Shown in pieces: positions 10,434-62,646 of a DNA stretch of 64,000 bases; within the stretch, counting starts at the first letter, position 1; each line of letters starts with the position of its first letter. The stretch covers positions 8,833,304 through 8,897,303 of the forward strand of contig NC_091932.1 in NCBI RefSeq assembly GCF_041260155.1. Direction: 5' to 3'. This DNA comes from Ptychodera flava. Lineage: Eukaryota > Hemichordata > Enteropneusta > Ptychoderidae. The position numbers and the translations under genes were made by a program. Under the pieces are notes generated by a model, which was not told the DNA's origin, searched no databases, and saw only the letters and a list, made by a program, of their open reading frames with translations.

Positions 10434-10673
10434 TCAGTTCATAAGGCATAAGGTACCGTCGAAACTTCGGAAGCCAGGGAACGCTACTGCTCCAGAAAAG
10501 TGTTCTTTCGTTTCTTCGTTCGCAGATTTTACTCGAGAGTTCATGTCTCTTTGGCCACAATAAATGTATCCGATGATTGAAGCCACAAGTTCGATGAACT
10601 CGGCCACCGTTATCACTGATAGGCCAATGTACAGTCCTAGAGTACCACCGATATCACTGAGGAAATCTTCCAT
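10434..10673 (-). CDS. Channel terminal exon: TM2 pore helix and C-terminal tail
   Basis: This exon reads [20 protein letters not shown] and then [38 protein letters not shown] is the most conserved DEG/ENaC block. It contains the degenerin gating site, the G-x-S selectivity filter (here GLS) and the TM2 helix. A cytoplasmic tail of about 40 residues follows, ending LCLMN and a TGA stop. The acceptor is TCGTTACAG. The opening Met is an internal residue, not a start. Confidence 0.95.
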   Translation of the reverse strand: MEDFLSDIGGTLGLYIGLSVITVAEFIELVASIIGYIYCGQRDMNSRVKSANEETKEHFSGAVAFPGFRSFDGTLCLMN

Positions 10674-13600
10674 CTGTAACGATATATGTAGAGAAGGTGA
10701 TATATCCAGAACTTTAATGTAAAAATTTTTACTGCAAAAATTTTTTAAAAATGTATATTTTCAGAAAAAAAATCACACACGTTTAGAACAACGTGCGGTT
10801 CTTTATGAAGTATTACCGTTTCTGTATCGAAATACGTTTAGCTATTTTACTTTGCGCGAGCATAAAAAGCTTGCAATTTCTTAAGTTTAGCAGCGCTGAC
10901 AGGAAGTTTTAACATTAGATATTATTCCCTAATATTTTTCTTCGTTCAGCGAAGGAAAATACGAGTGACGTAATGACCGTGTCACCACGAGTCGAAGACG
11001 AGTGGTGACACGGTCATTACGTCACGAGTATTTTCCGAGCTGAACGAAGAAAAATATTAGGGAATAATATACTTATCACATGCACAAGCCAAGAATTCGT
11101 TATTTTTTGCAAAATAAAATAAGTTTTCCATGACGATTCCGCGTTTAAACTTTGAACTACTTTAGGAATAAATATCAGTACGCCGTGCACAAGTTGTCAA
11201 TCATTTCCAGTCGTCCGTCGTGTGCGTTATCGCTCACGTCAGTTCGTTCGTGTGTGGAGCAAATGACAGCTCTCGGTCTACACGTAGGCTACCTTCCGCA
11301 AAGTTATACTCTATTTCAAAGATAGCATAGTCCTAGAAATTTATCACAGACGAAGATACGCTATTTTTCGGGAACAAATATCGACTGAATCTCGACGGCG
11401 CAAACACTGTAAACGTCGCGCCTGACCCTGTTTGCAATGCGTACGGAACCCACGGTATACGCGACCAGCTTCGAGTTCGTTGTTTCCGCAAATTATTCAC
11501 GTAATTCCTTCGGAATATACAGGCGATACACTCTTGTGTTTACATCGTTCGGATTAGTAATGTCGTAGTCTGTGAAAATATCGATTTCATTACATGACTT
11601 TTGATCGTGGGAGAAACATCGGCCGCCATGTTGTTTGTCTACATATTTACGAGCACACCGAAGATCGACAAAAAAAGGTCCGACGCACCGAAATTGATGA
11701 CATAGACGCGGGTTGTCGTGACGTAGAACGACCAGAGAATAAATCCCGTATTTTTTGTTCGGAGACGACAAACTTGGCTTGTGCATGTGATAACATAACT
11801 TATCACATGCACAAGCCAAGTTTGTCGTCTCCGAACAAAAAATACGGGATTTATTCTCTGGTCGTTCTACGTCACGACAACCCGCGTCTATGTCATCAAT
11901 TTTGGTGCGTCGGACCTTTTTTTGTCGATCTTCGGTGTGCTCGTAAATATGTAAACAAACAACATGGCGGCCGATGTTTCTCTCACGATCAAAAGTAATG
12001 AAATCGATATTTTCACAGACTACGACATTACTAATCCGAACAATGTAAACAGAAGAGTTTACCGCCTGTATATCCCGAGGGAATTACGTGAATAATTTGC
12101 GGAAACAACGAACTCGAAGCTGGTCGCGTATACCGTGGGTTCCGTACTTACGCATTGCAGGCAGGGTCAGGCGCAACGTTTACAGCGTTCGCGCCGTCGA
12201 GATTCAGTCAATATTTGTCCCGAAAAATAGCGTATCTCGTCCGTGATAAATTTTTAGGACTATACTATCTTTGAAATAGAGTATAACTTTGCGGAAGGTA
12301 GCCTACGTGTAGACCGAGAGCTGTCATTTGCTCCACACACGAACGAACGTGAGCGTTAACGCACACTACCGATGACTGGAAATGATTGACAACTTGTGCA
12401 TGGCGTACTGATATTTATTCCTAAAGTAGTTCAAAAGTTTAAACGCGGAATCGTCATGGAAAACTTATTTATTTTGCAAAAAATAACGAATTCTTGGCTT
12501 GTGCATGTGATAAGTATATTATTCCCTAATATTTTTCTTCGTTCAGCTCGGAAAATACTCGTGACGTAATGACCGTGTCACCACTCGTCTTCGACTCGTG
12601 GTGACACGGTCATTACGTCACTCGTATTTTCCTTCGCTGAACGAAGAAAAATATTAGGGAATAATATCTAAATATATATATATATAAAGCCGACGTTGTC
12701 AAGCTCCTGTATTATACTGAATATTTTTCTCCCTTCCTTTCTTTTGTTTTTAGCCTTTCGTCTAAGTGTTTATAGTTTTTTTCATAAATTGATAATTTAC
12801 ATTTAAACATAAAAGCATTATTCTTACCCCATACGCAGGCAACTCGGTTGTACTTTCAATCGTCAGCTGTTCAAAGTAAACTTCAAGCTGGGCAAGATTG
12901 AGGCTGATGGAAGGGAAATATCTTACATAAGCACCCTAAAAGCCCTCTTATGTTTCTTTCTTAAAGCTTATCTAAGTGCTTAACGCTACTAGAAGACCTT
13001 CCGCATTTTGTTTGACCTTGACGAAATTTAACATCAATTGAACCGAATTCAATACTTTTTGTCGAACCATATTCATTACATTGAAATTAAGAATATTTGA
13101 GCAAAATCATAATTTGATATCAGTTGTACTCTATTCTCATCACCAGTATTCATGGCAAGCCAAGACATGCTTTCGTCTTGTGGCAATATCTGAAAACATT
13201 TTCGGCGAATTGTAAATTCGCATACGACCCTTCCCCTTCTTTGACTACACGTACTATTTTGTATATATTTTGGTTTGGTAGTTGTGATCTAAACAAATAA
13301 CAAAAGAAGCATATAAAAATAGCAACGATGTTCATTACAACAAGATTGTCTCCCTTGCTCCCGTAATAGATAAACGAAATAATTACCTGACTGACTGGGC
13401 ATCGTTAATATCTTTAGTCTTGGGGCTGATAGAATGTATAGTCTTCAACAAATATGACTGTGCAAACAAACAAACAATAAGACTCTTTTTATCGGAGGTT
13501 ACAGGACACATGTTTGGTCCTGCAAACCAATGAATTTTCTGCAAAAACAAATTGAGCCTTTCGTAAAAAATTGATACCGCAAATTTCAACCGGAACGACG

Positions 13601-16600
13601 CAGACGAAGTAGCGTTTGTACACGGGAAGATTAAAACCGAACCTTTATACGTTATTCAATTGGCTGTCACGTGTTGTTCATATTAACACAGATTACACTT
13701 ATTCAAATGACAGTATTAGCTAGGCTTTCAGCTGATATATATTTTAATGAGGTTTAAAGCTCAGTTTTTGCAGAGAAGTCAATGTTAGCAAGAGTCAAGT
13801 ACTTCATCCGGGACATTTATGTATTATATATTTTGAGATAGAAAGACATCCTCACAGTATAAAGAGATTCGAATCTTACAGATCCTGTTAAATGTAACAG
13901 TACGCAATGAAAATCAAACTCGCAACAAAAGGAAATCCATTTCATCTGAAAACTTCAACGAGACTTTTGTTGATACCTCTATGATCTTGGGTAAGAAAAG
14001 TAATAAGGCTCTGCGACTCGGGCGATACTATTCAAATATAACACAGACATCAACCGTGGGAACGTGTTTTCTGTAGGACAGTATAAAACTAAGAGACCAT
14101 TCTTGGAGACTTAGACTTCGATTTCACATAGTTAAACTTAAAGGTAATAGAAATCAGAAAAGGTTTATTTACAGAGGAAAGTGGCATTACCAAATGGACA
14201 GTTGCCGGCCAAAGAGACTGGGAAATAGTCATGTCATAATAATGTTCCCTGTAAAATTGAACGTGTCTATGGTTAGTGAGGCAGTAAAGTTGTGGGAAAA
14301 TAATAATATTTCGTTTCCTTATTAGGCATACAAAGCGTTTTGGACGCACATTTTTGATTTGCTAATTTTTGCAATACCTTGCTGGCACGCTGCTTGTCCG
14401 GAATTTGTTTGAAGCTTGTTAAGTTGATGAATTTTTCATCAATTTTTTTTGGGTCGAAAATGATAATTTAGTAACACGATTGGAACTAATTTGAGATAAT
14501 AGGATCTTTTTATTTTTCGAATTTCTTAAATGTGTTAGATGCCCTATAGCGGAATATTGCAATATTTTAAGTTACACATAAAAATAAGTGTATAACTTAA
14601 AAAGAAAAGCATATTAGCCGACATTTTCAGATTAAACAGACATAACTTCACCATCCAATTGTCACAAATTAGTTCTAATCGTGTTTAATTCTTTCAATAA
14701 CAATCACCTAAACATTACCTTTGTTTGAAATTCAAAATGGCCGATACCCTTAATTTGACAGTATGTCATGATTATAATTCAAATAGGGATTGCGGCCATT
14801 CAAATTTAGCTAACGTTCAGGTGATTTGTTTCTCTACTTATGCAAAAAATGTTTGGTCACATGTAAAGACGAAGGCTTCTGTAACGAATACCTCGACACC
14901 GAAGTTGTTAGAGCAGGCCGAAGACAAAATTAAGTCAACGTATTGACCGAACTATTAGCATTATTACGCAGAACAGCTAGAAAGTAACCTCGATATCAAC
15001 AGCGAAACAATTATAAATACTTAAAAGCTAGCGAAAATGAATCTGACAGTAGAGAAGACAGGCGACTATATATGAGACATTATGAATGAAACTTTCAAAA
15101 ATGAAAGAAGCTCCATTTTACAAAGCGAAAAAGGACTACTTATATTGGTACAACTCATAGTTTTTATACTTTCTAGGCAAACAAGACCTAAGAATAACTT
15201 ACTCGCATGGAATCCGGCAATCACAGTCCAATTTCTGTGTTTGAAACAGATATCTAATGAATTGTCTACAGGTATCTGTCAAAAGCAATGAGAAGCAAAA
15301 TACATCGGCCGTTATTCAATGCTCCAAGGAGGTAGGCCTTATACTTGATTGAAACTCAATTGTGTAGATAAATAAAGCTGTCAGATAGGATACTCTCTCG
15401 GGCCGAAGCTTGCTTTGTAATTTTTTAATATTTAGGTTCGAGTATTGCTTTTTTCTTCCAGACAGTGCTTTTACAAAGGAGATATTTAGTAATACTTCTA
15501 ATATTCCAATATTTTGGGTCATCAATATTCTTTTCGCAAAGAATTGAACTGTGGGAAAGAACTTGAGAATGCTGTGCCAAAATCGAACAATTCTGCAAAT
15601 ATAGATAATGCCAGAGAGTTCAGTTGCTTCATATAGTTTGTGAAGAGTCCCCAGTGAAAACCCTGCAGATTTCATAAACGAACATTTGCTCTTCATGATC
15701 GCAATTTTTCAGTGGGGAAACTATCTTGTTAAGCATGAGCGTCAATGACCTTGCAAATATTATCTACCAAAAGAGTCGTTCAAGCAATTCTCCGTGTGTT
15801 TGTGTGTACAATATGGTATGGACAACATTTGAAATTCACAAAGGCACCATATCCTTATGGTGCCTTTGTGAATTTCAATTTTGAGTATATAGCTGTATCA
15901 TCTTAACATCGAAAAGTTTGTAACGTCAAATTCTTTGCGAAACAAAAGCCCGAATTGCATTCCAAATGTTTATTTATACATTTGCAGTACTTGCTGACGT
16001 ATCCATAATTTGTGACGATTCTAATGCTGGAAAATTTAAGTAAGACCCGAGCTTTGTCAATGACATGACCCATTGTTGTTTAGACGCCGGTTGCGGGATA
16101 TATAAATGTATGATTGCTGGTTCTGCTTTTATATTAACTATTAATAAACCAAATTTGATAATTATTTGTACCTTGTGTGATGTTCGTGATAAGACACTGA
16201 GGCTCTCCCATAATATACGAGTCTACGCATTTGCAGTACTTCAGCATTTGACGTTGAACACACGTATTCTGGCAAGCCTGTCAAATTATCAGAATAAATT
16301 GTCGAAAGATGAGCATCCGGACAGCAGAAAGTGAGTGCAGGTAAGGAAATTTGCTCTATCTTCTATTACGGTTACATTTGTGTATATGGGATGACACAAG
16401 TTTTCAGACATTCATTTGGAATTACATCGCCTGAATCTTAAGAAGTATTTATATAATTGCTTACTCGAAAACCCTCCGCTATACTAAAGTTTTAGAATTA
16501 CTCAATAAAGCTGCAGTATTTCCAAGAATGGCAATATTGTCATGACTTTCATAGTCCTGAAAAATTGACAAAGACCATTGTCATTGTGTCCAACGACGTC

Positions 16601-19600
16601 ATATGCAAAGCAGGCTAAAAGACAAAAGCCCCCAAAGATATTGACAGCTGGCCAGGGGTCACCATGAATACGTAATGAAGCTTCACTACGCAGAAATCGC
16701 GGTGTCAAGCCCTTCTTAACCGGTCAAATCCTCTTGGCATTTCCTCTCATGCCTTGCAGTGTTCAACGTTTCGTTTGTATGGACGGTAGACGTTGCAAAC
16801 GCTTCAATTTAAGAGACTGCCCGATCATCCTGGGTTCATCAACTATACCGGCGTTAAAAATCCGAGTGTCGACTAGCTTTCCAACATTACGCAGTGGCCA
16901 GTGCCGTTGTTTTATATTCATCGGCCATGCCACATGCGTACGGCTCCAATACACCGTTGCCCCTACATCAGTCCTTTCTACCCAGCTTCCTATGTACCAC
17001 CATATATGCTGTAGTGGGTATTTAATTGCAAAGATTCATAGGTAAATGAATCGTTTTACTTGTCACACTATGACTGAGGTAATGACCTTCGGGGAGCTAC
17101 GCGAATGTATGAACTACGTGAACTCTGCGTGATCGACCCATTCATATAAAAGTTGCGCCCTTAGTGGCGCGTCAAACTTAGAAATGAGGGCCATTCGAGA
17201 TTTAATTGTTCAAAGGCGCGTCCTAGAATTAACTTTTGCAATTAGTGCGATAGTACACTACCAAGTCTACGGTTCTGCAATGTCTATATAGCGTGTGAGG
17301 GGAGTGTGATCTGGGGAACGCAAAGGAGGTTATCCACATATATGAATTTAGGACACGCCCGCTGTCAGTAATGACTGCTGACGTCATTGTTTTTCCCACT
17401 GAAGCAATTCGCTGTGGCGATGTGTAGACACGCAAGGCTCCAAAAATTGGTAGTTTTCCGCGATTTATTTTATTTTCCTGGTACTTTTTCTCTGAACAAC
17501 CGTACGCGTCATTCCAGGCCGAAATCATCACTAGGTAACAAAGTATGCCCATGTTTAGGCTCGTGCATGTTTAATTATCAAATGCCATAGCCTAGAAGTA
17601 TCAAAACATGGGGGTTTTTTTTGCGTTTTTCTCGAATTCAATGTGTGAATGAAGTACCCTTCTTTGGCACCTCGTCAATTCGCGCTCACAAACACTAGCT
17701 GTTTGAAATTCACACCGTCCATTGGAAACATGATGAACTAAAAATCCGTGTGTGGGATTTCCTTTATATGCCTTTGTTTCTTTTTTTTAATGCGCTCTTA
17801 AAGGTGTTGAACGAAAGTGCTTTTCAAGGAATTTTAATTATCACGCCACATAATTTGAATGGAGCCTCCGAGAAAAAATCGCAGACATTGTTTTGAAGGA
17901 TATTGTCAATGAAGAAATTCCAACCGGAAATCTTGCGGCGTGTTTGCATAAGGCGTGAAAAACCGGTTTTTTGAAGGTTCAGCAAAACGCTTGTCACATG
18001 ACTCTTTTGCAAATAATGACCGTGTACTGTACTTGGTCGGATAGCTCTATATCAGGGCTTTCAGAAAATGTATACTTTATAGGGGTTTGGGACGTGTTCA
18101 ATTGAGAAAAAAATATAAATCTGAAAGTGTCTAAAAGGTATTTATCATCCTTAAGTGAGCAAACATTTCAATACCTACCAACACGCTATAGACATGGTTA
18201 TACCCATACAAATTATCAGAGTTTGTTCCACATTTTCCATAGGGTTCCGTTCTCCGATGAATATGTTTCTGTACAGTATTCGAAAGTCAAAAATAGATTG
18301 GAAAAATATAATTGAGTTTTGACATTAATTTATGGTATGTAGGCCCTATGTATGTATGTATGTATGTATGTATGTATGTATGTATGTATGTATGTATGTA
18401 TGTATGTATGTATGTATGTATGTATGTATGTATGCATGTATTTCACAGATGTACAAAATATGTAACAAATGTTTAAAAATAAAGACAGCCTGTTGACAAG
18501 CTTGTCAGTTTTCCCCGTAATGCATGTATAATATACTTTCCGGGTTGACTCGAAGCCGCGAATATGCGAATATGGAGGTTTATATGGAAGGTTTCTACTT
18601 ATACCGTGGAGTAATAGAGAAAGGTAACGTTGGCCTTTGACCTAAAGCTCTTCATGCACTGCCTAAAATACTCGGCACTGCTTAAAATACTCTGCCTAAA
18701 ATACTTGGCACCCTTAAAATACTATCTCACTTTTTCGTAGAGGGAGCAAGCAAGGGATTCGGACATTTGTAAACATCTGATAAAATTATTTCACCCCTGT
18801 CACCTTTTGACATTAGATTCTCAAAAGGCCATCAAGTTTTTTATCTAAGCTTACATTCAGTCCGGTATTTTTTATGTATTTAGTAATTAACTTTGGTGAG
18901 CCTAAGGTAGTAGATATGGGTTTCCCTGGATACGGTTTTATAGACCCACGTCATAGGCCTCTCAAAAATCCCAGGCTGTTTGGACTTTTCGTCAAACAGC
19001 CTGGATCAACAAAAGTCTTAACCGCTCCTAACAGCGAAAACTGAATGGATTCTTTGACCATGCAAGAATTTTTTTCCATCTCACCTCTCTTATCCCGATT
19101 GAAGTAACTGTACCGGGCATTATTGTTATTCCCTCATCTTGAGGAAGTACGCTGGCGTCAAGAGGGCTAATATTCACCCTTGTTCCTGCATTGCGTCCAT
19201 AAATACTTATGTATTCGTTTTGTTCCAGAAACAATGTCAGTCTCAAACCTGCATGGAAGACATGAAACCATACAAAGGCATATTTTACTCCCGTTTGTGT
19301 TGTTGATGTCATAAGGAAGTAGGAGAAGAATGCATCATGGTCAATACCTGGCAATGTTTACTGAAATGACATACAGTCTACAGTTACTATCTTAACCCTC
19401 GTAAAAGGTTTCTAATATTTCGCTGCATTACAGACTAGAGATTCAAAACCAAGATGGAGAAAAATACTGTAACAGCATCTAATGGGTTTTAGACACAATT
19501 TGTTTATTCACTGAATATTTGTGCTCATGGAAAAGTTGAAATCATTTCGATAATTCAAACTCTGTCACACTGGTATTAGTCGGTGGGGCTTATCATGTTA

Positions 19601-22600: not shown

Positions 22601-22875
22601 AAGGAATGAAGGAATATTCTATTTTTTTCTTGTGGAAGTAGTTTAAATTCATGATAATTACGTTATCTATACCTGTGCTTGTCGTCGTGCAATCAACCTC
22701 GTCACTACCATCGGCACAGTTTTGTATGGTATCACATATTGCATATTGGTATACACATTCTCCCGAACCACATTCTCGGTACTCATCTGGGGAGTTGTTG
22801 TTCTCATCTAAGCACGAGTCGAGAAAGGAGAGAGTCCGTTTCTTAAGTTCCAAAGATTACAATACGTACATGCAT

Positions 22876-22910
<35 letters not shown>

Positions 22911-34722: not shown

Positions 34723-34759
<37 letters not shown>

Positions 34760-46700: not shown

Positions 46701-47197
46701 ATCACTACCTGTGTGACGTAGAACAGCACAGATAAGAAATCTACATGACCCGTGTTCTATCTACGGCATCATGTCGGTACTTTTTTCAGCCTTGACTACA
46801 GACCCCCACCCACCCATAACTGTTTTGGCAGCGTTCCCTAATACATGGACTAGACAGTAGCATAATACATAACCTGCTTATACTTCATTGAAGAATAAAA
46901 AAATATGGTATGGTTACCGGTTAAATTAGCTACCTCATAATTTCATTAGGAAAGTGATCACCATGAAATTCGACATTTGGCCCTTTGTTTCCCCGGCTAA
47001 AACGAACACCGGAAGCCAACTACACTTTTTTGTCGTCTAACGGCTACAGAGGGTACGAAATCTGCTGTAGGACTGTTACAGTGCTACTGTCCTCACGTCC
47101 CTACTCAAGTCGGACGGGGTAGCCTGTTTTACTGTGCCTGAAAGGAGATTCGAACTGGACGAAGACAATCGCGAGATATTTGACTTAGCCGAATATA

Positions 47198-47266
<69 letters not shown>

Positions 47267-48540: not shown

Positions 48541-48623
<83 letters not shown>

Positions 48624-51600: not shown

Positions 51601-54550
51601 TATCTTGCCGATGTTAAAATCACTGTTTTCAGCGAAAGACGGTTCGAACCAAGTAAAGTTACGTCGTAATGTATATTATCCACTATAAGGGCATACATAG
51701 TCGAGGTTAGAGATGATATTAAGGAGTCATCAAAGATTTTTATTGTTTTCACTCTAGGCCATTAAGGAGTCGTGTGTATATTAGCGATGATGCGTATGTA
51801 AAACAAATGAAATGCCTACAGATAGAAATTTCTGAAGCCTTAAGTCAGTGGTGACGACAATGAAACAGAATCTCGCCTTTGGGTCTATATTCCTCAAAGA
51901 TATATTATATAGGGCTCAGCCCTAGGTGTCGCGCCAGGGGTTAAGATTGGCAATGTTATTTGTATTGATTCATGATAAACTGTAATTGTTACTTCATAAA
52001 CGTTTATATGACAACTATGCCCAGTTTCCCTCTGATGAAAGCAGTTCACGTACTTACACGACGTCAAACCCTGCAGCAGGGCAGGTATAGATTTTCTGTA
52101 GCGTGTAAAAATTTTGGACAAAAATTGGCAATTTTTACAATGATAACAGCCTATGGCGTTAAACAAGGGACGTATTATGCAATAATTATCATTGCAATGG
52201 TAACCGCACTGCCCACCTTCCACTTGCAAGCTGAAAACTACAGCGTTCCGTCTAAAAACTTGCAATTTTTGAATCTAATTATTGACACAGGGGGCGCTCT
52301 TCTATAATTCAATCCCAGCATTCTTTGCGTATGCCCCCGTTCATATGCACGACAGTTTTCTCCGTTTATCTGTATCAACGATACTTTGTATCAGCGACAA
52401 GGTGTATAATAACATTTACTGGCTAATAAAAGAGGTATATTTTATAAAAGGCATGTTATATCATAATAATTTGTTTCGTATTTGTTTATTTACGAGTACT
52501 CAAAAAAAAAACATGGCGGCGCCCAATGAGAAAGAAGGGTACACTTCCGGTTACTCGCATAGTATATTATGAATAAGCGCATGCGTAGTCAGTAAGCCGC
52601 TGGCGCGACTATTATATCGATTTTATTTGAGCATCGATATCGTTATCATTGTCGTCATCATTATTAGATTGTACTTTCTAAAGTCATGCAATTATGTATC
52701 ATTATTGGGCTGATTCCAATACGAAGTTATCGTCCTACTCGACCTTGTCTTCTACATATTCTCATTTCAGAAAAATTACGTACTTTGCCGTCGTATTTTG
52801 AATATTATGAGGTTAATACCGCAAAGGAGGCACGAGGACATTGGCGCAGCGTATCGTCCGACGTCAAGCACAGGGCGATGCGCGGCACCAATGTCCGAGT
52901 CCATCCATTGCGGTATTTTCGTGATAACCTTATTATTATACATCTTACATTCGTCTCGTGGGGCATCAAATCGTCAGAGTAGTGACCGTTTTTGTGCAAT
53001 GTCAACAAGTTTTCTTCCGATGAGCGCGCGCGATACATGTCCTGGCACTCATCCAATGCTCACTTCACCAGTGAACGCGAAGTCACAGGGGATGGGGTGC
53101 CTGGAAACCGTACGTGTTTCGGAACGGGCGTTCCGTACGGCTCGTTTAACCTACTGAAAATTCTATTGTTCCCGATGGTAGATGTATAATGATGTATATT
53201 ATCATAGACAGTCGAGAAACAGAATAGGAAGCTACGGTATTTCCTTTGAACGAAATATGCTTGAATAAATTACTTTGGAGTTGCATACCCATTGATAAAC
53301 AAATCCAATTACCACCCAACTGTCGTACAATCTCTTAAAACATGCTTGCAGGCCTTACATTCAGTGTGTCACAAACACACCTTTTTCCTAACAGAGAATA
53401 TATCCATTCAGAAGGAAAGCAATGTTTCTTTGTCGCAGCTAGGAATAAATCAATCTTTGGGATAAGGGAATCCGACTTCAATCGGAAAGACAACTTTATG
53501 CTGAAGATAAGTTCAATGAAGTTTTTTCACTGCGAACTACCGGATGTCGAGCAGCGGCTATCGCCCAGCTGATAATTATGCAAAAATAGACTCACACGTT
53601 CTGGCTCATCGCTTCTTCACAATCCTTTTGTTCTTTGCGGTAGCTTCCCATCCTCTTTCTCGACTGTCTATGATATTCATCACGATGTCAACATCACGAT
53701 GTCAGTAGAAATTGAGACCAGTCGCCCTTTTCTAAGTCACGTGAGGCAGTTAAGACAGTCATCGGTCAGCAACAGCGATGCACATTTTTTGGAGAATATT
53801 ACTACTTCTGTGTTTACAAAATCTTTGATTCACTGAACAAATAAGGTAGAACGCACCTCGGGGACAGACATTCGGACTCTCAAACTTTTACAGTTCTCTT
53901 CTGATATACCACATGTGGGGGTTCATTTTAAAGCTCTTGGTGAAAGAAAACTTTTCACCGGCTTAGTTTTTTGAAATTCGAAAATGTTTATTTTTCGCCA
54001 TAGAGTTAACACAGGGATGGCGGCCATTTTGAATTTCTAATATCGGTAAATCTTGGGTTATTTGTTTCTCTAGTACCAAAATTTGCACGGTGACCCCCTA
54101 TTTTTATTCTTGATTTTGAAAGAGAATGATTGAAAGATTCCTTGAGGAAAGTTAGAGCAAAAGTTTAAGTCTTTTACTTTCGAGGTGCATATTACCTTAA
54201 CAAAAAGGTATTTTGACATTTGACACGATATAATAACATAACTCTTGTCAGTTTGGGCATAGTTTTTCGAACACCCTGATAAATATTCCACAGAAATAAA
54301 AAATAAAAACATTTTGACTAATTCGAATAATAGGTAGATACACAACTGCGATATAAAAATATATCAGGGCTAGTAACCGTATCAGTGTTTCTTTCGTGAG
54401 AATGGCATTAATCTACTTACCATATTCGCAGTCTTGTTCATCGCTCATATCTTGACAGTGGTTGATGCCGTCACAGACAAGGTACTGTTTGATGCAGAGT
54501 GCACCATTTTTTGCTCACGTGTTCACACACGTGAGCATATGTCGCAGCGA

Positions 54551-54581
<31 letters not shown>

Positions 54582-57500
54582 CTGTCTGTGTGTCTGTGTG
54601 TCTGTCTGTCTGTTGGTCCATTTTCTCAAAAACGGCTGAACGTATTTCAGTCAAATTTGGTAGACATCTTCAGAATTCAAATGGCTAGAACTGAAAAGGT
54701 TTTGGTGGGCGTGGCTTGCATATTAATGAAGTTATCACAGTTTTAATTTTTCTGATACATGGTAGTCTATGGGAAGCCAGTATCTGTGGTTTGAGGGCGC
54801 TATCCCCACGTTACACTCTGGCTAGACGATGCTGAAATTAGACTCGGTTTCGGATTCGGATTCGGTTTCGGATTCTAGAGACTGAAAGAAATTTTATATT
54901 TTCAGCCAATTGTTACACTGTGGAATACTGGATTTTCCTTACTTTCCCTGGACCCTTTTTTCAGCTAAAATAATATCTAATCACACTAAACAAAGTGAAA
55001 ATAAGTATATAGGGATAACTTAGCAATACAAATTTTTTGACAAAATGTCATGTGATCTCGATGACCTTTGACCTTAAATATGAGTATATGTCCATAACTC
55101 AGTAACCACAAGTGCTACACCCTTCATATTTGGTATGATGGGAGACCTTATGACATCACATCCTGTACCTTATTAATTATGTGCATATCTAATTGTGAGC
55201 CAGCAAATAGAGCTAGAGGTCTGATTTTTGGTATATAGGTATAACTTAGCAATACAATTTTTTTGACAAATGTCATGTGACCCCAATGACTTTTGACCTC
55301 AAATATACATATATGGCCATAACTAAGTAACCCCAAGTGCTACACCCTTCATATTTGGTATGATGGGAGACCTTATGACACCACATCCTGTACCTCATTA
55401 ATTATGCGCATATCTAATTCTGAGCCAGCCAATAGAGCTAGAGGTCTGATTTTTGGTATATAGGGATAATTTAGCAATACAATTTTTTTTACAAAATGTC
55501 ACGTGACCTCGGTGACCTTTGACCTCAAATATACATATTTGTCCATAACTCAGTAATCACAAGTGCTACAGCCTTCATGTATGTATGGTATGATGGGACA
55601 GCTTATGACGCCACATATTGCACCACATTAATTATGTGCATATTTATTTTGAGCGCGCCAATAGAGCTAGAGGTCTGATTTTTGGAATATAGGGATAACT
55701 TAGCAATACAATTTTTTTGACAAAATGTCAGGTGACCTCGGTGACCTTTGACCTCAAATATACATATTTGTCCATAACTCAGTAACCACAAGTGCTACAG
55801 CCTTCATGTATGGTATGATGAAACACCTGATGACGCCACATATTGTACCTTATTAATTATGCGCATATCAAATTTTGAGCGAGCCAATAGAGCTAGAGGT
55901 CTGATTTTTGTATATAGGGATAACTTAGCAATACAATTTTTTTGACAAAATGTCACGTGACCTCGGTGACCTTTGACCTCCATACTACTATACATATTTT
56001 TCCATAACTCGGTAACCACAAGTGCTACACCCTTCATGTTTGGTATGATGGGACACGTTATGACGCCACATACTGTACCTCAATAATTATGCGCATATCT
56101 CATTCTGAGCGAGCCAATAGAGCTGGATGTCTGATTTTTGGTATATAGGGATAACTATAGGAGAGAAATTTTTTGACCAAATGTCATGTGACCTCGATGA
56201 CCTTTTACCTAAAATATATGTTTATGTCAATAAATAAGTAACCACAAGTGCTATGTCCTTTGTATTTAGTAGGATGGGAGACCTTATGACAGCACACGCT
56301 TTACCTCATTAATTATGTACACATCTAATTCTGGGCAAGCGAATAGAGCTAGAGATCTGATTTTTTGGCATATGGGGATTAATTAGGAATATAATTTTTT
56401 TGAAAATGTCATGTGACCTTGATGACCTTTGACCTTGATTATACATATATATGCATATTTCAGTAACCACAAGTTCTATACCCTCCAATTTTGATAGGAT
56501 ATTAGACCTTAAAATGTCACATCTTGTACCTCATTTATAATGCGCATATGTATTTCTTGGCTGGCCATACTGCTAGAGGTCTGATCTTTTTTCCCGATTT
56601 AGAACCGTAACTTAGACATGCCTCATGTGTTTCAAATTGGGAACAACGACATAGACCTATGTGCCCATAGATCTCAACATATACACTCCAATGATACTTC
56701 TTAATGACCACATTTTCCTGCCCCATCAAGACTAGTACTCCTATTACAAGTGGGGACTATGTCATTGTAAATGACTTGTTGAGTTAATGGTTGTATCACA
56801 GTATTCGATATATCTAATTCTGTATTTTTTCCATTTTATATTCTGAATAATTACATTAAACATATTTCACTGTCTCCAGTACATTTCATTTAAGTATTTT
56901 CACTTCATGCACTTTATCTGACCAGAGAACAAACACTAAATAGTCCAGGATGGGAGCTACAGTGTCATTGACGCTATTTTTACTTCAGCCAATTCCTAAT
57001 TTGCATATTAAATGAATTTTCATACATAGGGATATTCATCTGAATTGACTTGATCAAAATTGATGTAACTTGCTTTGTACATTTCAGACACTGTAATACA
57101 ATATTATTGAAAGTCATTAATCATTTTCTCATCAGCAAATTCCTAATTTGCATGTTTAATGAACTTTCCTAATTAGAGATATATGTCTGAATTGACTTGA
57201 CCAAAGTTGACAAAACTTGCTACATATATTGCAGATACCATGATACAACATTATTGACAATCATTAAGCATTTTTACTTAAGTCAATTCCTAATTTACAT
57301 ATTTAATGAACTTTGCTTATTAGGGATATATACTGGGATTTTCTTGATCAAAGTTGGCAAAACATGACAACATTGATGATTATACCTGGTTAAAACAATA
57401 TCGAAAGTCATTTCACATTTTCATGTCAGCTAATTTACAATTTGCATATCTAATGAGCTTTCACAGCTCGGCATATATGGCTTGAAGGACTTGGCCAACG

Positions 57501-58101
57501 GTAATTACACTTGCTATATAAATGACAGCAGTCAAAGAACTTTAATATTTTTATTTCAACTAATTACATATTTGTATACTTCATTACCTTTGAGAATTAA
57601 TCAGCGGTGATTATTGTTCATTATGTTGATCATAATACTTTCAATGAAGTTGCAAACATGTGGCAAAGGTTCAAATTTACACATAACTGTATGAAACACG
57701 TGAGCATTTTCAGTTCATATCTGGTTACATGTGAAGTCACTGGGTAGGCAAGGAGCTACGAATACAAATGACACTTTTTATCATAGTGAAAGTCAAAGAA
57801 CTCAACGCGATCCCTGTTGTGGCCGGAATGAGATGCAAAGTTTAATAAACGAGTGGCATGTATAAAATATTTATGGCACACAGAACAGTTATTATTTTAT
57901 AGGCTACAAGTGAATCTTGTTTTAGGGAATATATAGAATTCTGACAGGAAGTATCATACCGTAATAAGGGAGAACGGAATCTTCATCTACTACACGTATC
58001 CTTCGATGTTCCGACTTAAGTATCTCTGTTTTTCGAATTTTGTTTGTGTTGCAGACAGTCACCGTCGGGAATGTCAGCTTTGGTACAGTGATAAGGTCAA
58101 A
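10434..58101 (-). CDS. Chimeric DEG/ENaC-family sodium channel with LDLa, PAN and kringle modules (whole gene, 5' end missing)
   Basis: I assembled this from about 22 exons by matching splice sites, phases and domain signatures by eye. Order: post-TM1 motif (TFPTVTVCN), LDLa x3, PAN x2, kringle x5, PAN x3, LDLa, then the DEG/ENaC finger, cysteine-rich region, palm strands and TM2. DEG/ENaC proteins are trimeric amiloride-sensitive sodium channels of the plasma membrane with a large extracellular domain between two transmembrane helices. All inserted modules fall in that domain, just after TM1. Intron phases agree throughout: the inserted cassette is uniformly phase 1-1 and the channel exons join 1-2-1-0, then 0-1-2-0-2-0. 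Missing are TM1 with the N-terminal cytoplasmic region, and a short exon expected between 16278 and 19084. Two LDLa exons carry transposon insertions, so this allele may be impaired or those exons skipped. Separate adjacent genes are less likely because both channel halves flank the modules. Confidence 0.85.
10916..12670. mobile_element. 1.75-kb double foldback (two inverted MITEs with terminal hairpins)
   Basis: The whole interval is an inverted repeat with its axis near 11796. The centre is two copies of TTATCACATGCACAAGCC facing each other around CATAAC. Each arm is a body of about 720 bp bounded on both sides by that motif (11072 and 11793 on the left; 11800 and 12515 on the right). At both outer ends sits a hairpin of about 155 bp (10916-11072 and 12514-12670) whose arms contain GTGACGTAATGACCGTGTCA. 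The arms differ at only a few percent by eye. It lies in the last intron of the channel gene. Long frames crossing it only mirror the palindrome. Confidence 0.85.
12828..12903 (-). CDS. Channel exon: DEG/ENaC pre-TM2 strand
   Basis: This exon reads [20 protein letters not shown] and ends LPAYG. NLA.L.VYFE.L..E....PAY is the conserved beta strand before TM2. The acceptor is CCCTTCCATCAG and the donor is GTAAGA. It starts in phase 2, ends in phase 0 and contains exactly 25 complete codons. The following intron contains the large foldback. Confidence 0.9.
13387..13457 (-). CDS. Channel exon: palm linker before the LEVYFEQL strand
   Basis: This exon reads [20 protein letters not shown] and then QSV. 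The residues are not diagnostic alone. They were identified by position, since family members have about 25 residues between the WP motif and the NL..L.VYFE strand, and by exact phase agreement (0 at the start, 2 at the end). The acceptor is TTTGTTTGCACAG and the donor is GTAATT. Confidence 0.75.
14191..14248 (-). CDS. Channel exon: DEG/ENa[12 protein letters not shown] strand
   Basis: This exon reads [19 protein letters not shown]. The Y....S.S.WP motif follows the C.C..PC signature in DEG/ENaC channels. The acceptor is CAATTTTACAG and the donor is GTAATG. It is 58 nt, starts in phase 2 (completing a Glu codon with the previous exon) and ends in phase 0. Confidence 0.88.
14474..14684. mobile_element. 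Small MITE
   Basis: Terminal inverted repeats AACACGATTGGAACTAATTT and AAATTAGTTCTAATCGTGTT, about 211 bp apart, with no coding content. Flanking TA on both sides could be a Tc1/mariner-type duplication. It lies in a channel intron. Confidence 0.6.
15203..15275 (-). CDS. Channel exon: DEG/ENaC cysteine-rich region, part 2
   Basis: The phase-1 start gives [20 protein letters not shown] followed by RIPCE. C.CRIPC matches the second C.C..PC signature of the family, directly before the beta strand that leads to TM2. The acceptor is CTTTTGACAG and the donor is GTAAGT. At 73 nt it is too short to recognise without its neighbours, but its phases fit both of them. Confidence 0.85.
15829..15878. repeat. 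Perfect 23-bp inverted repeat with 4-base loop
   Basis: The arm begins TTGAAATTCACAAAGGCACC at 15829-15851, the loop is TCCT and the exact complement is at 15856-15878. It could be a transposon relic or a small-RNA hairpin. Confidence 0.75.
16172..16277 (-). CDS. Channel exon: DEG/ENaC cysteine-rich region, part 1
   Basis: This exon reads [20 protein letters not shown] and ends CLITNITQ. The C...C.......C.C spacing matches the disulphide-rich thumb region of DEG/ENaC channels, where ASIC1 has ACRIDC and CNCRM. The acceptor is TAATTTGACAG and the donor is GTACAA. It starts in phase 0 and ends in phase 1. NIT is a possible glycosylation site. Confidence 0.88.
16278..19084 (-). other. Channel intron region, one short exon not located
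   Basis: The exon 19085-19248 ends in phase 0 and 16172-16277 starts in phase 0. The family requires about 25-30 residues with a PYP..C motif between them. I could not find that exon. The stretch also holds a (TATG)n array (18349-18432) and a short hairpin with arms CCAGGCTGTTTG (18971-19004). The plus-strand open frame 16734-17045 has no recognised family. Confidence 0.5.
18349..18432. repeat. (TATG)n microsatellite
   Basis: About 20 uninterrupted TATG units in a channel intron. Confidence 0.95.
19085..19248 (-). CDS. Channel exon: DEG/ENaC GLRLTL segment
   Basis: This exon reads [20 protein letters not shown], then [18 protein letters not shown], and ends [19 protein letters not shown] and the P..DEG..I.PG..TSI motif are standard for DEG/ENaC palm/beta-ball strands. 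The acceptor is TTCCATGCAG and the donor is GTGAGA. It ends in phase 0. The exon that should follow, with a PYP..C type motif, was not found. Confidence 0.92.
19681..19787 (-). CDS. Channel exon: DEG/ENaC NCFKFN segment
   Basis: This exon reads [20 protein letters not shown] and ends with LYG completed by the next exon. The F.D..YGNCF.FN signature is highly characteristic of DEG/ENaC extracellular domains. The acceptor is GTTTACAG and the donor is GTGAGT. It starts in phase 2 and ends in phase 1 (107 nt). Confidence 0.93.
20139..20797. mobile_element. 659-bp inverted-repeat transposon with 9-bp target duplication
   Basis: It starts ACAGGTGGCCCACACACTAT and ends GTGTCTGGGTCGCCTGT. Long imperfect terminal inverted repeats include AATAAGCTTATTATTGAGTT, and a second inverted layer around TTAGTCAACACAACTAATTA folds the centre. 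It is flanked by an exact 9-bp repeat GCCAAAACC (20130-20138 and 20798-20806). Long TIRs with 9-bp duplications suggest a non-autonomous Mutator-like (MULE) foldback. No transposase is encoded. It lies in a channel intron. Confidence 0.75.
20998..21292 (-). CDS. Channel exon: DEG/ENaC finger domain
   Basis: This exon reads [18 protein letters not shown] and runs to [20 protein letters not shown], then EKSCSP. The [13 protein letters not shown]....CSP pattern is typical of the extracellular finger/beta-ball region of DEG/ENaC channels. The acceptor is TTGTACCCAG and the donor is GTAAAT. It begins in phase 1 and ends in phase 2 (AG|T), which fits the next exon exactly. This is where the ordinary channel sequence resumes after the modules. 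Confidence 0.9.
21826..21990 (+). repeat. Dispersed repeat family, copy 1 of 3
   Basis: It shares AAAGACTTAAACTTTTGCTC and AACCATTCTCTCACAAACTT with 33926-34110 and the inverted copy near 54 kb. It may be part of a longer element beginning near 21625 (GGTATACTGTCACCTG). Confidence 0.5.
22673..22807 (-). CDS. LDLa-4 exon
   Basis: The 45-codon phase 1-1 exon begins [20 protein letters not shown] and ends with the LDLa core [18 protein letters not shown]3-C6 and the calcium-binding DGSDE are clear, but the N-terminal cysteine pair is less canonical than in the other repeats. The acceptor is CGTGCTTAG and the donor is GTATAG. It is the last inserted module. Its closing phase 1 joins the channel finger exon at 21292. 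Confidence 0.85.
22869..23083. repeat. Compound (ACGC)n/(TATG)n microsatellite
   Basis: Runs of ACGC followed by TATG, and then a second shorter round of the same. Long frames rich in Tyr, Val, Cys and Met here are by-products of the 4-base period. Confidence 0.95.
23678..24397 (+). pseudogene. LINE APE-like endonuclease domain
   Basis: An open frame of 239 residues. [15 protein letters not shown] at the start, [20 protein letters not shown], the catalytic-type INGDFNH and the final GYSDHNLI are the ordered motifs of APE-type endonucleases of LINEs. In such elements this enzyme nicks target DNA to prime reverse transcription. The reading continues into the RT only through frame changes, so it is a fragment of a dead element. 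Confidence 0.85.
24494..26426 (+). pseudogene. LINE reverse transcriptase, frameshifted
   Basis: Pieces in different frames: a basic linker (24494-24880), RT fingers with [14 protein letters not shown] and RPVALT (25019-25225), palm with [10 protein letters not shown] (25404-25715), a thumb part with [15 protein letters not shown] (25712-25954) and a C-terminal piece (26172-26426). At least four frame changes separate them. The RT box reads FADD, as in this clade. Non-functional. Confidence 0.8.
27238..27383. repeat. (TACA)n microsatellite
   Basis: Imperfect tetranucleotide array immediately 3' of the PAN-5 exon on the gene strand. The frames over it are artefacts. Confidence 0.9.
27387..27686 (-). 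CDS. PAN/Apple-5 exon
   Basis: A 100-codon phase 1-1 exon. It begins [20 protein letters not shown], has the core [20 protein letters not shown] and [13 protein letters not shown], and ends [11 protein letters not shown]. The acceptor GTGATTTCAG and donor GTAATG agree in phase. Directly downstream lies a (TACA)n microsatellite and then the TTAA-flanked element, all in the following intron. Confidence 0.85.
27979..28498. mobile_element. Hairpin-plus-TIR foldback element
   Basis: A hairpin (27979-28091; loop core GAGGCCGCAGGCCGAG) is attached to a body bounded by TTAAAAACTATC (28095-28106) and GATAGTTTTTAA (28487-28498). Non-coding. It has the same two-part design as other foldbacks here. Confidence 0.65.
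28500..29690. other. Channel intron DNA, nothing recognised
   Basis: Plus- and minus-strand open frames of 60-85 codons occur but show no domain, splice chain or repeat signature. A candidate cysteine exon lies just beyond at 29698. Confidence 0.4.
29698..29799 (-). CDS. Candidate extra exon, unknown small cysteine module
   Basis: This 102-nt stretch can be read as a phase 1-1 exon between PAN-4 and PAN-5: acceptor TATAGATTAG, then [20 protein letters not shown], ending CSLSSH, donor GTATAC. Three cysteines and an NYT sequon suit the ectodomain, and the phase matches the cassette. However, both splice sites are weak and I recognise no family. It may be a chance reading. Confidence 0.2.
30268..30525 (-). 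CDS. PAN/Apple-4 exon
   Basis: This 86-codon phase 1-1 exon begins [17 protein letters not shown]. It has [40 protein letters not shown] and ends YIHLERR. It matches the PAN core with C..C and CKSLDFSP. The acceptor is CCATACAG and the donor is GTGAGT. The NAT sequon is a likely glycosylation site. Confidence 0.85.
30721..31028. mobile_element. Hairpin-plus-TIR foldback element
   Basis: A hairpin (30721-30814, ends GTATACCAC and GTGGTATAC) is followed by a body whose ends match as TATTATATCATA...ACAGTATATT (left 30838-30859; right complement 30997-31028, with an 11-base insert). Non-coding, in a channel intron. Confidence 0.6.
31641..31886 (-). CDS. PAN/Apple-3 exon
   Basis: This 82-codon phase 1-1 exon begins [17 protein letters not shown]. 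Its core is [20 protein letters not shown], followed by [12 protein letters not shown], and it ends DVRFTRILD. The cysteine pattern and FFDY core fit PAN_1/Apple. The acceptor is ATGACCAG and the donor is GTAAGC. An NRT sequon and the SNSS stretch suggest N-glycosylation, expected for an ectodomain. Confidence 0.85.
32331..32600 (-). CDS. Kringle-5 exon
   Basis: A single kringle in 270 nt, phase 1-1. It reads [55 protein letters not shown] and ends [14 protein letters not shown]. The six cysteines and the NYCRNP box are present. The acceptor AAATAG is preceded by a run of T and the donor is GTACCT. It sits about 400 bp after the kringle 3/4 exon and starts like it. Confidence 0.9.
32996..33544 (-). 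CDS. Double-kringle exon (kringles 3 and 4)
   Basis: A 549-nt phase 1-1 exon with two kringles. Kringle 3 goes from [20 protein letters not shown] through [20 protein letters not shown] to YESCDV. Kringle 4 goes from [14 protein letters not shown] through [20 protein letters not shown] to [15 protein letters not shown]. The acceptor is CGTTACAG and the donor is GTAAGC. It resembles 44761-45348 in layout, so the pair of double-kringle exons may reflect exon duplication. The intron between them holds the LTR element. Confidence 0.9.
33926..34110 (+). repeat. Dispersed repeat family, copy 2 of 3
   Basis: It contains GAAAGACTTAAAATTTTGTT and CCATTCTCTTTCAAACTAAA. The same series of words occurs at 21826-21990 (plus) and, inverted, at about 53930-54190. 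A non-coding dispersed repeat, age unknown. Confidence 0.6.
34729..34756. repeat. (GA)n microsatellite
   Basis: About 14 uninterrupted GA units shortly before the LTR element. Confidence 0.95.
34896..35476 (-). repeat. Left LTR (3' LTR of the element)
   Basis: 581 bp, TGTCACGTAGCGTGG to GTGGCTACATCACA, matching 40973-41575. On the element strand it directly follows a GGGAGG purine tract. Confidence 0.9.
40973..41575 (-). repeat. Right LTR (5' LTR of the element)
   Basis: 603 bp, the same ends as the left LTR, slightly longer through two small length differences. It should carry the element's promoter. Confidence 0.9.
41576..44760. other. Channel intron DNA
   Basis: Apart from the MITE at 42362-42708 I see no gene. 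43500-44400 is strongly AT-rich with degenerate repeat-like text. Confidence 0.45.
42362..42708. mobile_element. 347-bp MITE with TTATCACAT ends
   Basis: Terminal inverted repeats of about 45 bp starting TTATCACATACCTCGAGCCA on the left, mirrored by TGGCTCGAGGTATATGATAA on the right. Non-coding. The outermost bases resemble the TTATCACATG ends of the foldbacks at 11 kb and 47.4 kb, suggesting a common transposase source. Confidence 0.7.
44761..45348 (-). CDS. Double-kringle exon (kringles 1 and 2)
   Basis: A single 588-nt phase 1-1 exon encodes two kringles. Kringle 1 runs from [16 protein letters not shown] through [20 protein letters not shown] to the final cysteine in LPKLQC. A proline/threonine-rich linker follows. 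Kringle 2 runs from [13 protein letters not shown] through [20 protein letters not shown] to [13 protein letters not shown]. Each has the six kringle cysteines. The acceptor is TTTTTATAG and the donor is GTAGGT. Kringles are disulphide-looped ligand-binding modules. Kringle 2 keeps [11 protein letters not shown], close to the lysine-binding edge of plasminogen kringles. Confidence 0.9.
46154..46402 (-). CDS. PAN/Apple-2 exon
   Basis: The module reads [19 protein letters not shown], then the core [20 protein letters not shown] and [12 protein letters not shown], and ends YDYYDRR. The donor GTGAGT is strong. I chose the acceptor CAACGTAG because it is the one that keeps phase 1. The nearby TTTCAG, eight bases downstream, would give the wrong phase. 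That start is less certain than the rest of the exon (249 nt). Confidence 0.8.
48435..48476. repeat. Perfect 42-bp palindrome centred on TGACGTCA
   Basis: Arms of 21 bp without a loop, beginning CCGTATACCCCTACTTC. The centre TGACGTCA is the consensus CREB/ATF site, though here it may simply follow from hairpin symmetry. Confidence 0.9.
48543..48618. repeat. (TA)n microsatellite
   Basis: About 38 TA units at the right side of the foldback. A similar array (47192-47264) marks its left side. Confidence 0.95.
48692..48934 (-). CDS. PAN/Apple-1 exon
   Basis: The 81-residue module begins [13 protein letters not shown], has the PAN core [20 protein letters not shown], and continues [11 protein letters not shown] before ending VYYERIHH. 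Paired cysteines in the C..C....FxCxSFdY pattern are typical of PAN_1/Apple domains, which bind protein or carbohydrate partners in plasminogen, HGF and similar proteins. The acceptor is TATTTTCAG, the donor is GTAAGA and the exon is phase 1-1. It follows the LDLa trio and precedes a second PAN. Confidence 0.85.
48935..49914. other. Channel intron, nothing recognised
   Basis: No gene, repeat or hairpin found between the PAN-1 and LDLa-3 exons. Confidence 0.45.
49915..49979 (-). CDS. LDLa-3 exon, 3' part (split by a 708-bp foldback)
   Basis: This part reads [20 protein letters not shown], a textbook second half of an LDLa repeat with the calcium-binding DCPDGSDE motif and C4-C6. The donor is GTATGT after TGT G (phase 1). 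The upstream boundary is the exact edge of the foldback element. Removing the element and one target-duplication copy gives a continuous LDLa reading frame. Confidence 0.8.
49980..50687. mobile_element. 708-bp foldback inserted in the LDLa-3 exon
   Basis: The ends are AACACCTATTG and CATGTGGTGTGTT, flanked by an exact 6-bp duplication ATATTA (49974-49979 and 50688-50693). The left part is a hairpin of about 190 bp (loop core GAGGCCGTAGGCCGAG at 50067-50082). A second inverted pair, TATAACACACCACATG (about 50173) and CATGTGGTGTGTTATA (about 50675), bounds the rest. No transposase. Removing the element plus one duplication leaves an uninterrupted LDLa module, so the insertion was clean. Confidence 0.85.
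50694..50748 (-). CDS. LDLa-3 exon, 5' part (split by a 708-bp foldback)
   Basis: After the acceptor TTTTATACTAG the phase-1 frame reads [20 protein letters not shown], which is C1-C3 of an LDLa repeat. The foldback element 49980-50687 follows, with a 6-bp target duplication (ATATTA on the plus strand). The remainder of the exon is at 49915-49979. Counting one copy of the duplication, the two parts total 120 nt, again phase 1-1. Confidence 0.75.
50954..51076 (-). CDS. LDLa-2 exon
   Basis: This is an intact LDL-receptor class A repeat. It begins [10 protein letters not shown], passes [20 protein letters not shown] and ends DEANC. All six cysteines and the acidic EDE cluster are present. The acceptor is TACTTAG, the donor is GTAAAA and the exon is phase 1-1 (123 nt). 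It lies between two LDLa exons that are each broken by transposons, making it the only undamaged one of the N-terminal trio. Confidence 0.85.
52801..52945. mobile_element. Short foldback hairpin
   Basis: Inverted ends AATACCGCAA (52815) and TTGCGGTATT (52908-52917), with an inner pair GAGGACATTGG and CCAATGTCCG. Symmetry extends weakly outward. Non-coding. Confidence 0.55.
53192..53680. mobile_element. 489-bp MITE
   Basis: Inverted ends ATTATCATAGACAGTCGAGA (left) and TTTCTCGACTGTCTATGATA (right), extending about 50 bp with a few mismatches. The 76-codon frame inside shows no known domain. Confidence 0.65.
53930..54190 (-). repeat. Dispersed repeat family, copy 3 of 3
   Basis: Its reverse complement carries AAAGACTTAAACTTTTGCTC and CATTCTCTTTCAAAATCAAG, matching the copies near 21.8 and 33.9 kb. 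Confidence 0.55.
54421..54511 (-). CDS. LDLa-1 exon, 3' part (split by a 3.2-kb transposon)
   Basis: This part reads [20 protein letters not shown] and then [11 protein letters not shown], with the acidic calcium-binding DxSDE signature and cysteines C3-C6 of an LDLa repeat. The donor is GTAAGT after TAT G, in phase 1. The upstream side is the transposon end. Joined to 57721-57755, the C2-C3 spacing is seven residues, normal for LDLa. In the family this small module binds calcium and protein ligands. Confidence 0.75.
54551..54615. repeat. (CTGT)n microsatellite
   Basis: A CTGT/TGTC run next to the hairpin of the Helentron-like element. Confidence 0.9.
54960..56600. repeat. Tandem array of about 227-bp units (about 7 copies)
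   Basis: The phrase ATATAGGGATAACTTAGCAA recurs at intervals of 222-231 bp (near 55009, 55231, 55456, 55684, 55911, 56141 and 56370), with each unit also carrying TCATTAATTATG and CAATAGAGCTAGAGGTCTGA. Units diverge toward the right end. Repeated minus-strand frames of about 60 codons are a consequence of the repeat. Confidence 0.9.
56600..57600. repeat. Second, weaker repeat series
   Basis: Motifs such as CAATTCCTAATTTGCATATT recur about every 130-150 bp (near 56990, 57140, 57290 and 57430), a degenerate tandem series inside the same element. Confidence 0.5.
57721..57755 (-). CDS. LDLa-1 exon, 5' part (split by a 3.2-kb transposon)
   Basis: After the acceptor ATTCGTAG the sequence reads [12 protein letters not shown] in phase 1. 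This is the first strand of an LDL-receptor class A repeat (C1, Phe, C2). The reading then runs into the mobile element 54512-57720. The other half of the module lies at 54421-54511. Together they are 126 nt (42 codons), which keeps the phase 1-1 symmetry seen in every other module exon. Confidence 0.65.
57960..58101 (-). CDS. Channel exon: DEG/ENaC post-TM1 motif
   Basis: This exon reads [20 protein letters not shown] and continues into IRKTEI. The stretch [10 protein letters not shown] matches the FPAVTICN-type signature that follows TM1 in DEG/ENaC channels, where the chain enters the extracellular palm. The acceptor is a pyrimidine-rich tract ending TTCTTAG and the donor is GTATGA. It starts in phase 0, ends in phase 1 and encodes 47 residues. 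Its ending phase matches the first LDLa exon downstream. No TM1 exon is visible between here and 60.6 kb. Confidence 0.85.
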
Positions 58102-58128
58102 CTAAGAAAACCAGAAAACACGAGAAAA

Positions 58129-58131
<3 letters not shown>

Positions 58132-58160
<29 letters not shown>
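58132..58160. repeat. (AAGT)n microsatellite
   Basis: Seven AAGT units just upstream of the post-TM1 exon on the gene strand. Confidence 0.9.
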
Positions 58161-58164
<4 letters not shown>

Positions 58165-58182
58165 AAGTGAGGATTGAGTGAG

Positions 58183-58292
58183 TATGTATGTATGTATGTA
58201 TGTATGTATGTATGTATGTATGTATGTATGTATGTATGTATGTATGTATGTATGTATGTATGTATGTATGTATGTATGTATGTATGTATGTA

Positions 58293-58347
<55 letters not shown>

Positions 58348-60860: not shown

Positions 60861-60884
60861 AGCTGATGTTGAACACGAAGTTAA

Positions 60885-62610: not shown

Positions 62611-62646
62611 TATGTATTAATATATGACACTCCCTACGGCATCAAC

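Follow-up and report, generated by a model that had tools for sequence, protein, structure and literature searches.

Exon series and module content of the locus

The window analysed here is a stretch of 64,000 nucleotides from the acorn worm Ptychodera flava, whose minus strand carries the exons of a DEG/ENaC channel and exons for LDLa, PAN and kringle modules in a single colinear series with matching splice phases (Table 1). Pfam profiles were run in three frames over the minus strand at 9.0-35.2, 40.2-54.8 and 56.5-59.5 kb, and over both strands at 59.4-64 kb, the tandem repeats at 54.8-56.5 kb and the retroelement at 35.2-40.2 kb lying outside the scan. The three minus-strand frames yielded five kringles (44.8-45.3, 33.0-33.5 and 32.3-32.6 kb; profile E values 1.5e-38 at the first of these and 3e-40 and 1.6e-19 within 32.3-33.5 kb), five PAN domains (48.8, 46.3, 31.8, 30.4 and 27.5 kb) and four LDLa domains (54.45, 51.0, 49.95 and 22.75 kb), all within 10434..58101, the LDLa at 49.95 kb being under the Pfam cut-off (E 0.0015). 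These are the numbers given by the first-pass annotation, and Pfam finds the same ones in the intact paralogue P0001 described below; the total stands, with the reservation that in this copy LDLa1 and LDLa3 are split and LDLa4 has one cysteine fewer.

Besides the ASC profile, the signature of DEG/ENaC proteins comprises two transmembrane segments, an FPxVTxCN strand and a G-x-S filter. The locus has the DEG/ENaC channel fold and fits the family by the ASC profile: PF00858 alone picks up the TM2 exon at 10.6 kb (E 6.4e-7) and no other channel exon, and the intact P0001 reaches E 3.3e-77. FPTVTVCN and GLS (within YIGLSVIT) are both encoded in the window, the TM1 part being seen in P0001 instead; YGNCFKF starts at 19759 and SQSLWP at 14223. 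A passage in PMC8791634 assigns ion selectivity to a conserved -X-S motif in TM2. The exit phase of E_N, phase 1, is the entry phase of E_2, the ten unsplit module exons are each phase 1-1 with a length that is a multiple of three, and phase is kept through all ten channel exons between 21292 and the stop at 10434. By tblastn, residues 71 to 1,607 of P0001 are matched in order along the minus strand of the window. Both results bear out the initial description of DEG/ENaC motifs that flank the modules on one strand with agreeing phases.

Elements unrelated to the channel are also present. The LTR pieces of the retroelement at 34896-41575 are 96-98% identical, and since they are so similar the element is perhaps a fairly young insertion. 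On the plus strand, 61489-64000 holds long open frames with no channel signature, among them an ORF at 63106-63999 that resembles a major capsid protein domain weakly and below the cut-off (PF16903, E 0.035) and for which no relative was found in viral contigs; the plus-strand ORFs upstream of the channel exons are perhaps a mobile element.

Table 1. Features of the module-channel locus, in order along the minus strand (positions in the window; phases as entry and exit)
Feature	Position	Strand	Remarks
Channel exon E_N	57960..58101	-	phase 0 in, 1 out; 92% identity with P0001 residues 71-122
LDLa1 exon, first piece	57727..57755	-	
LDLa1 interruption	54514..57726	.	~3.2 kb, two tandem-repeat arrays; P0001 protein unbroken at the same place
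LDLa1 exon, second piece	about 54421..54511	-	phase 1 out
LDLa2 exon	50954..51076	-	phase 1-1
LDLa3 exon, first piece	50688..50748	-	TTAATAT at end
LDLa3 insertion, 707 nt	49981..50687	.	flanked by TTAATAT copies
LDLa3 exon, second piece	49915..49980	-	phase 1 out; sub-threshold LDLa match
PAN1 exon	48692..48934	-	phase 1-1
PAN2 exon	46154..46402	-	phase 1-1
Kringles 1 and 2, one exon	44761..45348	-	phase 1-1
LTR retroelement, intron between kringles 2 and 3, outside the channel	34896..41575	-	RT, RNase H, integrase, chromodomain
Kringles 3 and 4, one exon	32996..33544	-	phase 1-1
Kringle 5 exon	32331..32600	-	phase 1-1
PAN3 exon	31641..31886	-	phase 1-1
PAN4 exon	30268..30525	-	phase 1-1
PAN5 exon	27387..27686	-	phase 1-1; Met at 27669 inside, start of P0121
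LDLa4 exon	22673..22807	-	phase 1-1; Ser at the first Cys of P0001
Channel exon E_2	20998..21292	-	phase 1 to 2
Channel exon E_3, YGNCFKF	19681..19787	-	phase 2 to 1
Channel exon E_4	19085..19248	-	phase 1 to 0
Channel exon E_5, EPYGKC	18179..18268	-	phase 0 to 0
Channel exon E_6	16172..16277	-	phase 0 to 1
Channel exon E_7	15203..15275	-	phase 1 to 2
Channel exon E_8	14191..14248	-	phase 2 to 0
Channel exon E_8b	13387..13457	-	phase 0 to 2
Channel exon E_9	12828..12903	-	phase 2 to 0
Last channel exon E_10, TM2 and stop	10434..10673	-	

Intact paralogues and the state of the window copy

Three full-length predicted P. flava paralogues, P0001 (1615 aa), P0002 and P0003, are found on a 35.9 Mb contig and have the order TM1-LDLa3-PAN2-kringle5-PAN3-LDLa-channel-TM2. 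The Pfam content of P0001 is five kringles, five PAN, four LDLa and ASC, and its insert, which follows the FPTVTVCN strand, measures 1,073 aa, in agreement with the about 1,070 residues after the first palm strand proposed from the window. A search of related genomes for the same order had been suggested, and that order is found in P0006 of Saccoglossus kowalevskii, with four kringles, five PAN, four LDLa and ASC in the arrangement of P0001 and an insert of 977 residues. Although these and the other long modular proteins are gene predictions, the module-channel design looks real because complete copies are predicted elsewhere in P. flava and in Saccoglossus. The locus is 86.1% identical to P0001 (1,254 of 1,456 aligned residues, in our own alignment of the intact exons only), the 82% obtained with an early locus model by local BLASTP differing from this figure by method. 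More partial module-channel or kringle-PAN models, P0122, P0005 and P0221, occur on a contig of the same 35.9 Mb length, contigs being distinguished here by length alone, which suggests a cluster with truncated annotations. The proteins are already public as uncharacterized or misnamed predictions.

Part of the translation of the window locus is identical, letter for letter, to the model P0121 (565 aa, 'degenerin unc-8-like', P. flava, 48.2 Mb contig), whose splices are also those of our own model across the channel half, the E_8b/E_9 junction having been set from P0121. This model starts at the Met at 27669 in PAN5, and 57960-58101 (E_N), TM1 and all kringles are missing from it. The first-pass annotation had held that transcripts ending between modules and channel exons, or separate promoters and stops dividing the locus, would speak against a single gene; the start of P0121 comes close to such a division for this locus, and does not for the family.

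Leaving aside LDLa1 and LDLa3, the remaining 21 exons form 1,460 codons with no stop, and 76 of the 77 aligned cysteines of P0001 are kept in them. In neutral simulations that placed half of the divergence on this branch, a mean of 5.7 stops arose and no run out of 200 stayed stop-free; with a quarter of the divergence on this branch the mean was 3.1 stops, and 10 of 200 runs were stop-free. Since 1,460 open codons are unlikely under neutral drift, constraint probably acted on the window copy during much of its history.

Apparent damage affects three LDLa exons. The 707-nt insertion in LDLa3 has a TTAATAT target-site duplication, P0001 resembling the empty site, and opens with an element between 13-bp inverted ends, followed by a second, hairpin-like element (an opposite-strand self-match). 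A reading of LDLa3 as two ordinary exons was ruled out by this duplication with its P0001-like empty site and by the lack of an in-frame GT/AG pair on inspection by eye. For LDLa1 a candidate splice, T/GTAACC to AG/CA, is in frame but loses a cysteine, and both of its sites look weak by eye, so the ~3.2 kb between the two pieces would be either an insertion or a poorly spliceable intron; minisatellite arrays with periods of about 225 and 147 lie within the split exon, at 55005-56590 and 56976-57462. The LDLa1 and LDLa3 exons are phase 1-1, which makes in-frame skipping possible. In LDLa4 a serine replaces the first cysteine of P0001. Upstream, Pfam, hydrophobic ORFs and tblastn with three paralogue N-termini revealed no TM1 exon across the 5.9 kb at 58102-64000, and the DEG/ENaC profile has no match on either strand of 59.4-64 kb.

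As read from its sequence, the window copy seems to be a duplicate that was long kept open and is now damaged on its 5' side. The main rival explanation for the locus, which concerns this copy and is compatible with the mechanism proposed below for the family, is that it is a decaying, 5'-truncated duplicate from which no full-length channel is made, the paralogues on the 35.9 Mb contig being the only ones to make one and the window yielding at most a TM1-less PAN-LDLa-channel product. We give this about an even chance. It accords with the start of the P0121 model within PAN5, the TM1 exon not found upstream, the two interrupted LDLa exons and the lost LDLa4 cysteine, and also with a search using the kringle half, in which no protein from a contig with the length of that of P0121 appears among the 120 matches listed of 2,829 (about 350-1,115 aa). 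It sits less well with the 21 open exons and their conserved cysteines, with the possible in-frame skipping of LDLa1 and LDLa3, and with the size of the introns, one of which already spans 11.2 kb, including 6.7 kb of retroelement; TM1 may therefore lie past the window. The original proposal of one module-bearing channel polypeptide is supported by the predictions P0001-P0003 and P0006, and is not supported for the window copy, with its two interrupted LDLa exons and no TM1 found.

Finger-loop inserts across an ambulacrarian clade

The channel parts of P0001 align to gamma-ENaC up to about residue 107 and again from residue 248, the insert following the first palm strand. In PMC9163703 the cleavage sites of gamma-ENaC are given as R138, RKRK178 and K189, and all three fall inside the unaligned gap of P0001 (about 107 to 248). 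Judged by this alignment, the modules occupy the finger loop, after the first palm strand and ahead of the remaining finger domain.

The domain layout of 64 channel proteins was compared, with our own profiles for kringle, PAN and LDLa and with precomputed Pfam lists for FA58C, CUB, SRCR and HYR. The modules stand between the two channel parts in all 26 modular proteins that have both parts, with inserts of 107 to 1,183 residues; the remaining modular proteins have a single channel part and lie outside this count, and in the annelid protein P0019 the modules are elsewhere. For the tree, 54 proteins were picked and P0019 was dropped for its length (201 aa), leaving 53 rows, the ten proteins kept out being nine that are short or distant and P0005, whose C-part is missing. 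In this tree of channel parts, 37 modular rows and the fragment P0130, which is without the N-part, fall on one side of a branch with support 97/95. All of them are hemichordate or echinoderm, among homologues collected as those sharing short words with the query, so that other phyla are possible. Adjoining them are five unmodified ambulacrarian channels, which form a group, and the long-branched nemertean channel P0138. The locus is thus placed by the tree in one ambulacrarian clade whose members appear to fill the finger loop with different modules. The kringle-bearing rows form two groups, and forcing them into one lowers the log-likelihood by 22 units (AU p 0.039), for a group that was named after the tree had been seen and that includes P0122, a fragment whose model has no kringle; two gains of kringles in the clade are possible.

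The consensus furin site R-x-[KR]-R, which is not proof of cutting, was counted in the 47 proteins other than P0019 that have both channel parts. Profile matches set the limits of the loop, which in distant unmodified channels therefore takes in some core. Unmodified loops have the site in 13 of 21 cases (1.3 expected after shuffling) and modular inserts in 3 of 26 (2.9 expected), a contrast that is inflated because the sequences are related, the 21 and the 26 not being independent cases. Among the unmodified loops, eight are without the site, four have two or more well-separated furin-type sites, and 15 are cysteine-free, the other six bearing cysteines. The site occurs in four of the five grouped unmodified ambulacrarian channels and is absent from a sixth, the sea-urchin P0143, which lies elsewhere in the tree. 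Neither the window model nor any insert of P0001, P0002, P0003 and P0006 has it, nor does any of the ten P. flava inserts that entered the count; RRIR stands ahead of the insert in P0001, P0002 and the window, and not in P0003. The locus therefore has an insertion in the finger loop and lacks ENaC-type paired polybasic cleavage sites. Loops of unmodified invertebrate relatives (P0129, P0131, P0133, P0136, P0138, P0141 and P0146) often have polybasic furin-type sites. Such sites in invertebrates bear on whether control by cleavage predates vertebrate ENaC, and on the view that the ENaC tracts arose with terrestrial vertebrates.

Kringles 3-4 of the window, searched as a pair, match the kringles of plasminogen, HGF and apolipoprotein(a). 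The DxD acid pair, which we take to be part of the lysine pocket of kringles, is present in none of the five window kringles, in three of five in mouse plasminogen and in two of four in P0006 by the same count, and because it is missing in all five, lysine binding by the window kringles is not predicted. No match to a protease domain was obtained on the scanned minus strand of the window.

Proposed mechanism and comparison with known channels

The best overall explanation is that the locus is an enteropneust copy of a DEG/ENaC gene in which a loop regulated by proteases was exchanged for a receptor head regulated by binding, a reading that we hold with evenly balanced belief and doubt. The sequence supports the site, the fold and the types of module; binding and gating we infer. 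In the intact paralogues, the modules would project beyond the trimer and form a receptor head that would bind a macromolecule of the matrix, of mucus or of a microbial surface, and this binding would shift the finger domain and with it the opening of a Na+-selective pore, so that a loop regulated by proteolysis would have given way to one regulated by binding. The modules could also be adhesive or inert instead of gating. For the clade as a whole, it is proposed, tentatively and with doubt somewhat the stronger, that in acorn worms and echinoderms a finger loop released by proteases was replaced by a socket taking interchangeable modules (LDLa, PAN, kringle, FA58C, CUB, SRCR, HYR). If this is true, there would be Na+ channels gated by large extracellular ligands and diversified like modular adhesion or immune receptors; if the intact paralogues conduct, Na+ channels would exist whose heads, reaching about 1,180 residues, occupy the loop that in ENaC is regulated by proteolysis. 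A comparison of modular with unmodified ambulacrarian channels would show whether control through that loop is general in the family.

The main rival for the family is tension. Gating by a tether has been proposed for degenerins, and kringle, PAN, LDLa, FA58C, CUB and SRCR are adhesive or binding module types; a head of such modules, located in the finger loop of the ectodomain, might be a mechanical tether to matrix or mucus that opens the channel when pulled. Domain content by itself cannot tell a tether from a ligand receptor, and we regard tension as unlikely, if well worth keeping in view.

Activation by proteases as in ENaC, in which the kringles would bring a plasmin-like protease to the loop for cleavage, appears improbable. 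The loop is that of the ENaC inhibitory tract, kringles 3-4 are similar to those of plasminogen and HGF, and RRIR precedes the insert in the window and in two of the three full-length paralogues. Against this, R-x-[KR]-R is missing from the inserts of all three and of P0006 and stays at the shuffled level over the 26 modular inserts, and the acid pair is missing from the window kringles, though two of the four in P0006 have it. The protease-sensing reading offered by the first-pass annotation is for these reasons, together with the lack of the furin site in the ten P. flava inserts, not favoured; the sensing of a ligand or of matrix, also offered there, is what we infer. That modules and channel are two genes fused by prediction is very improbable. 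Phase 1-1 modules are easily joined in error, and the kringles are omitted from P0121, but P0006 (with one kringle fewer) and three P. flava genes share the order, the modules in each of them coming straight after the channel N-part, and the splice phases in the window are continuous from E_N to TM2 without a stop.

No paper describing a kringle-bearing DEG/ENaC channel was found in the open literature, by searches of which one may miss the slashed form DEG/ENaC, which agrees with the earlier remark that no characterised channel of this layout was known. The single match of one of these searches was a plasminogen review (PMC13375477); the main text of PMC11175523 does not contain the words 'kringle', 'ENaC' or 'sodium channel', and for ASIC/ENaC papers that mention hemichordates the coverage is that of passages in PMC9949801.

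Several known systems share features with the acorn-worm channels. For the channel core, the best sequence match in the PDB is 7yvb (E 1.5e-49), an FMRFamide-gated FaNaC, and we know of no FaNaC channel with modules of the kringle, PAN or LDLa type. The Paralvinella (annelid) protein P0019 combines 11 kringles with ASC, the kringles standing late in the ectodomain and outside the finger loop, and is possibly an independent joining or a fused gene model. In C. elegans, EGAS-1 to -4 consist of EGF and ASC, and a passage of PMC10424705 reports currents in oocytes no different from controls. EGAS and acorn-worm channels are both DEG/ENaC subunits with added modules, those of EGAS being EGF; the EGF profile has no match in the window stretches scanned (54.8-56.5 and 35.2-40.2 kb being outside the scan). 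Because EGAS channels carry EGF, added modules on DEG/ENaC are not wholly new. Plasminogen and HGF have kringles like kringles 3-4 of the window, which instead sit in a channel gene. With gamma-ENaC, its GRIP domain and its inhibitory tract, the modular channels have in common the channel fold and the position of a regulatory insertion; the ENaC insert is a short cleavable tract, whereas that of the acorn worm consists of folded modules rich in cysteine, from which consensus furin sites are mostly missing.
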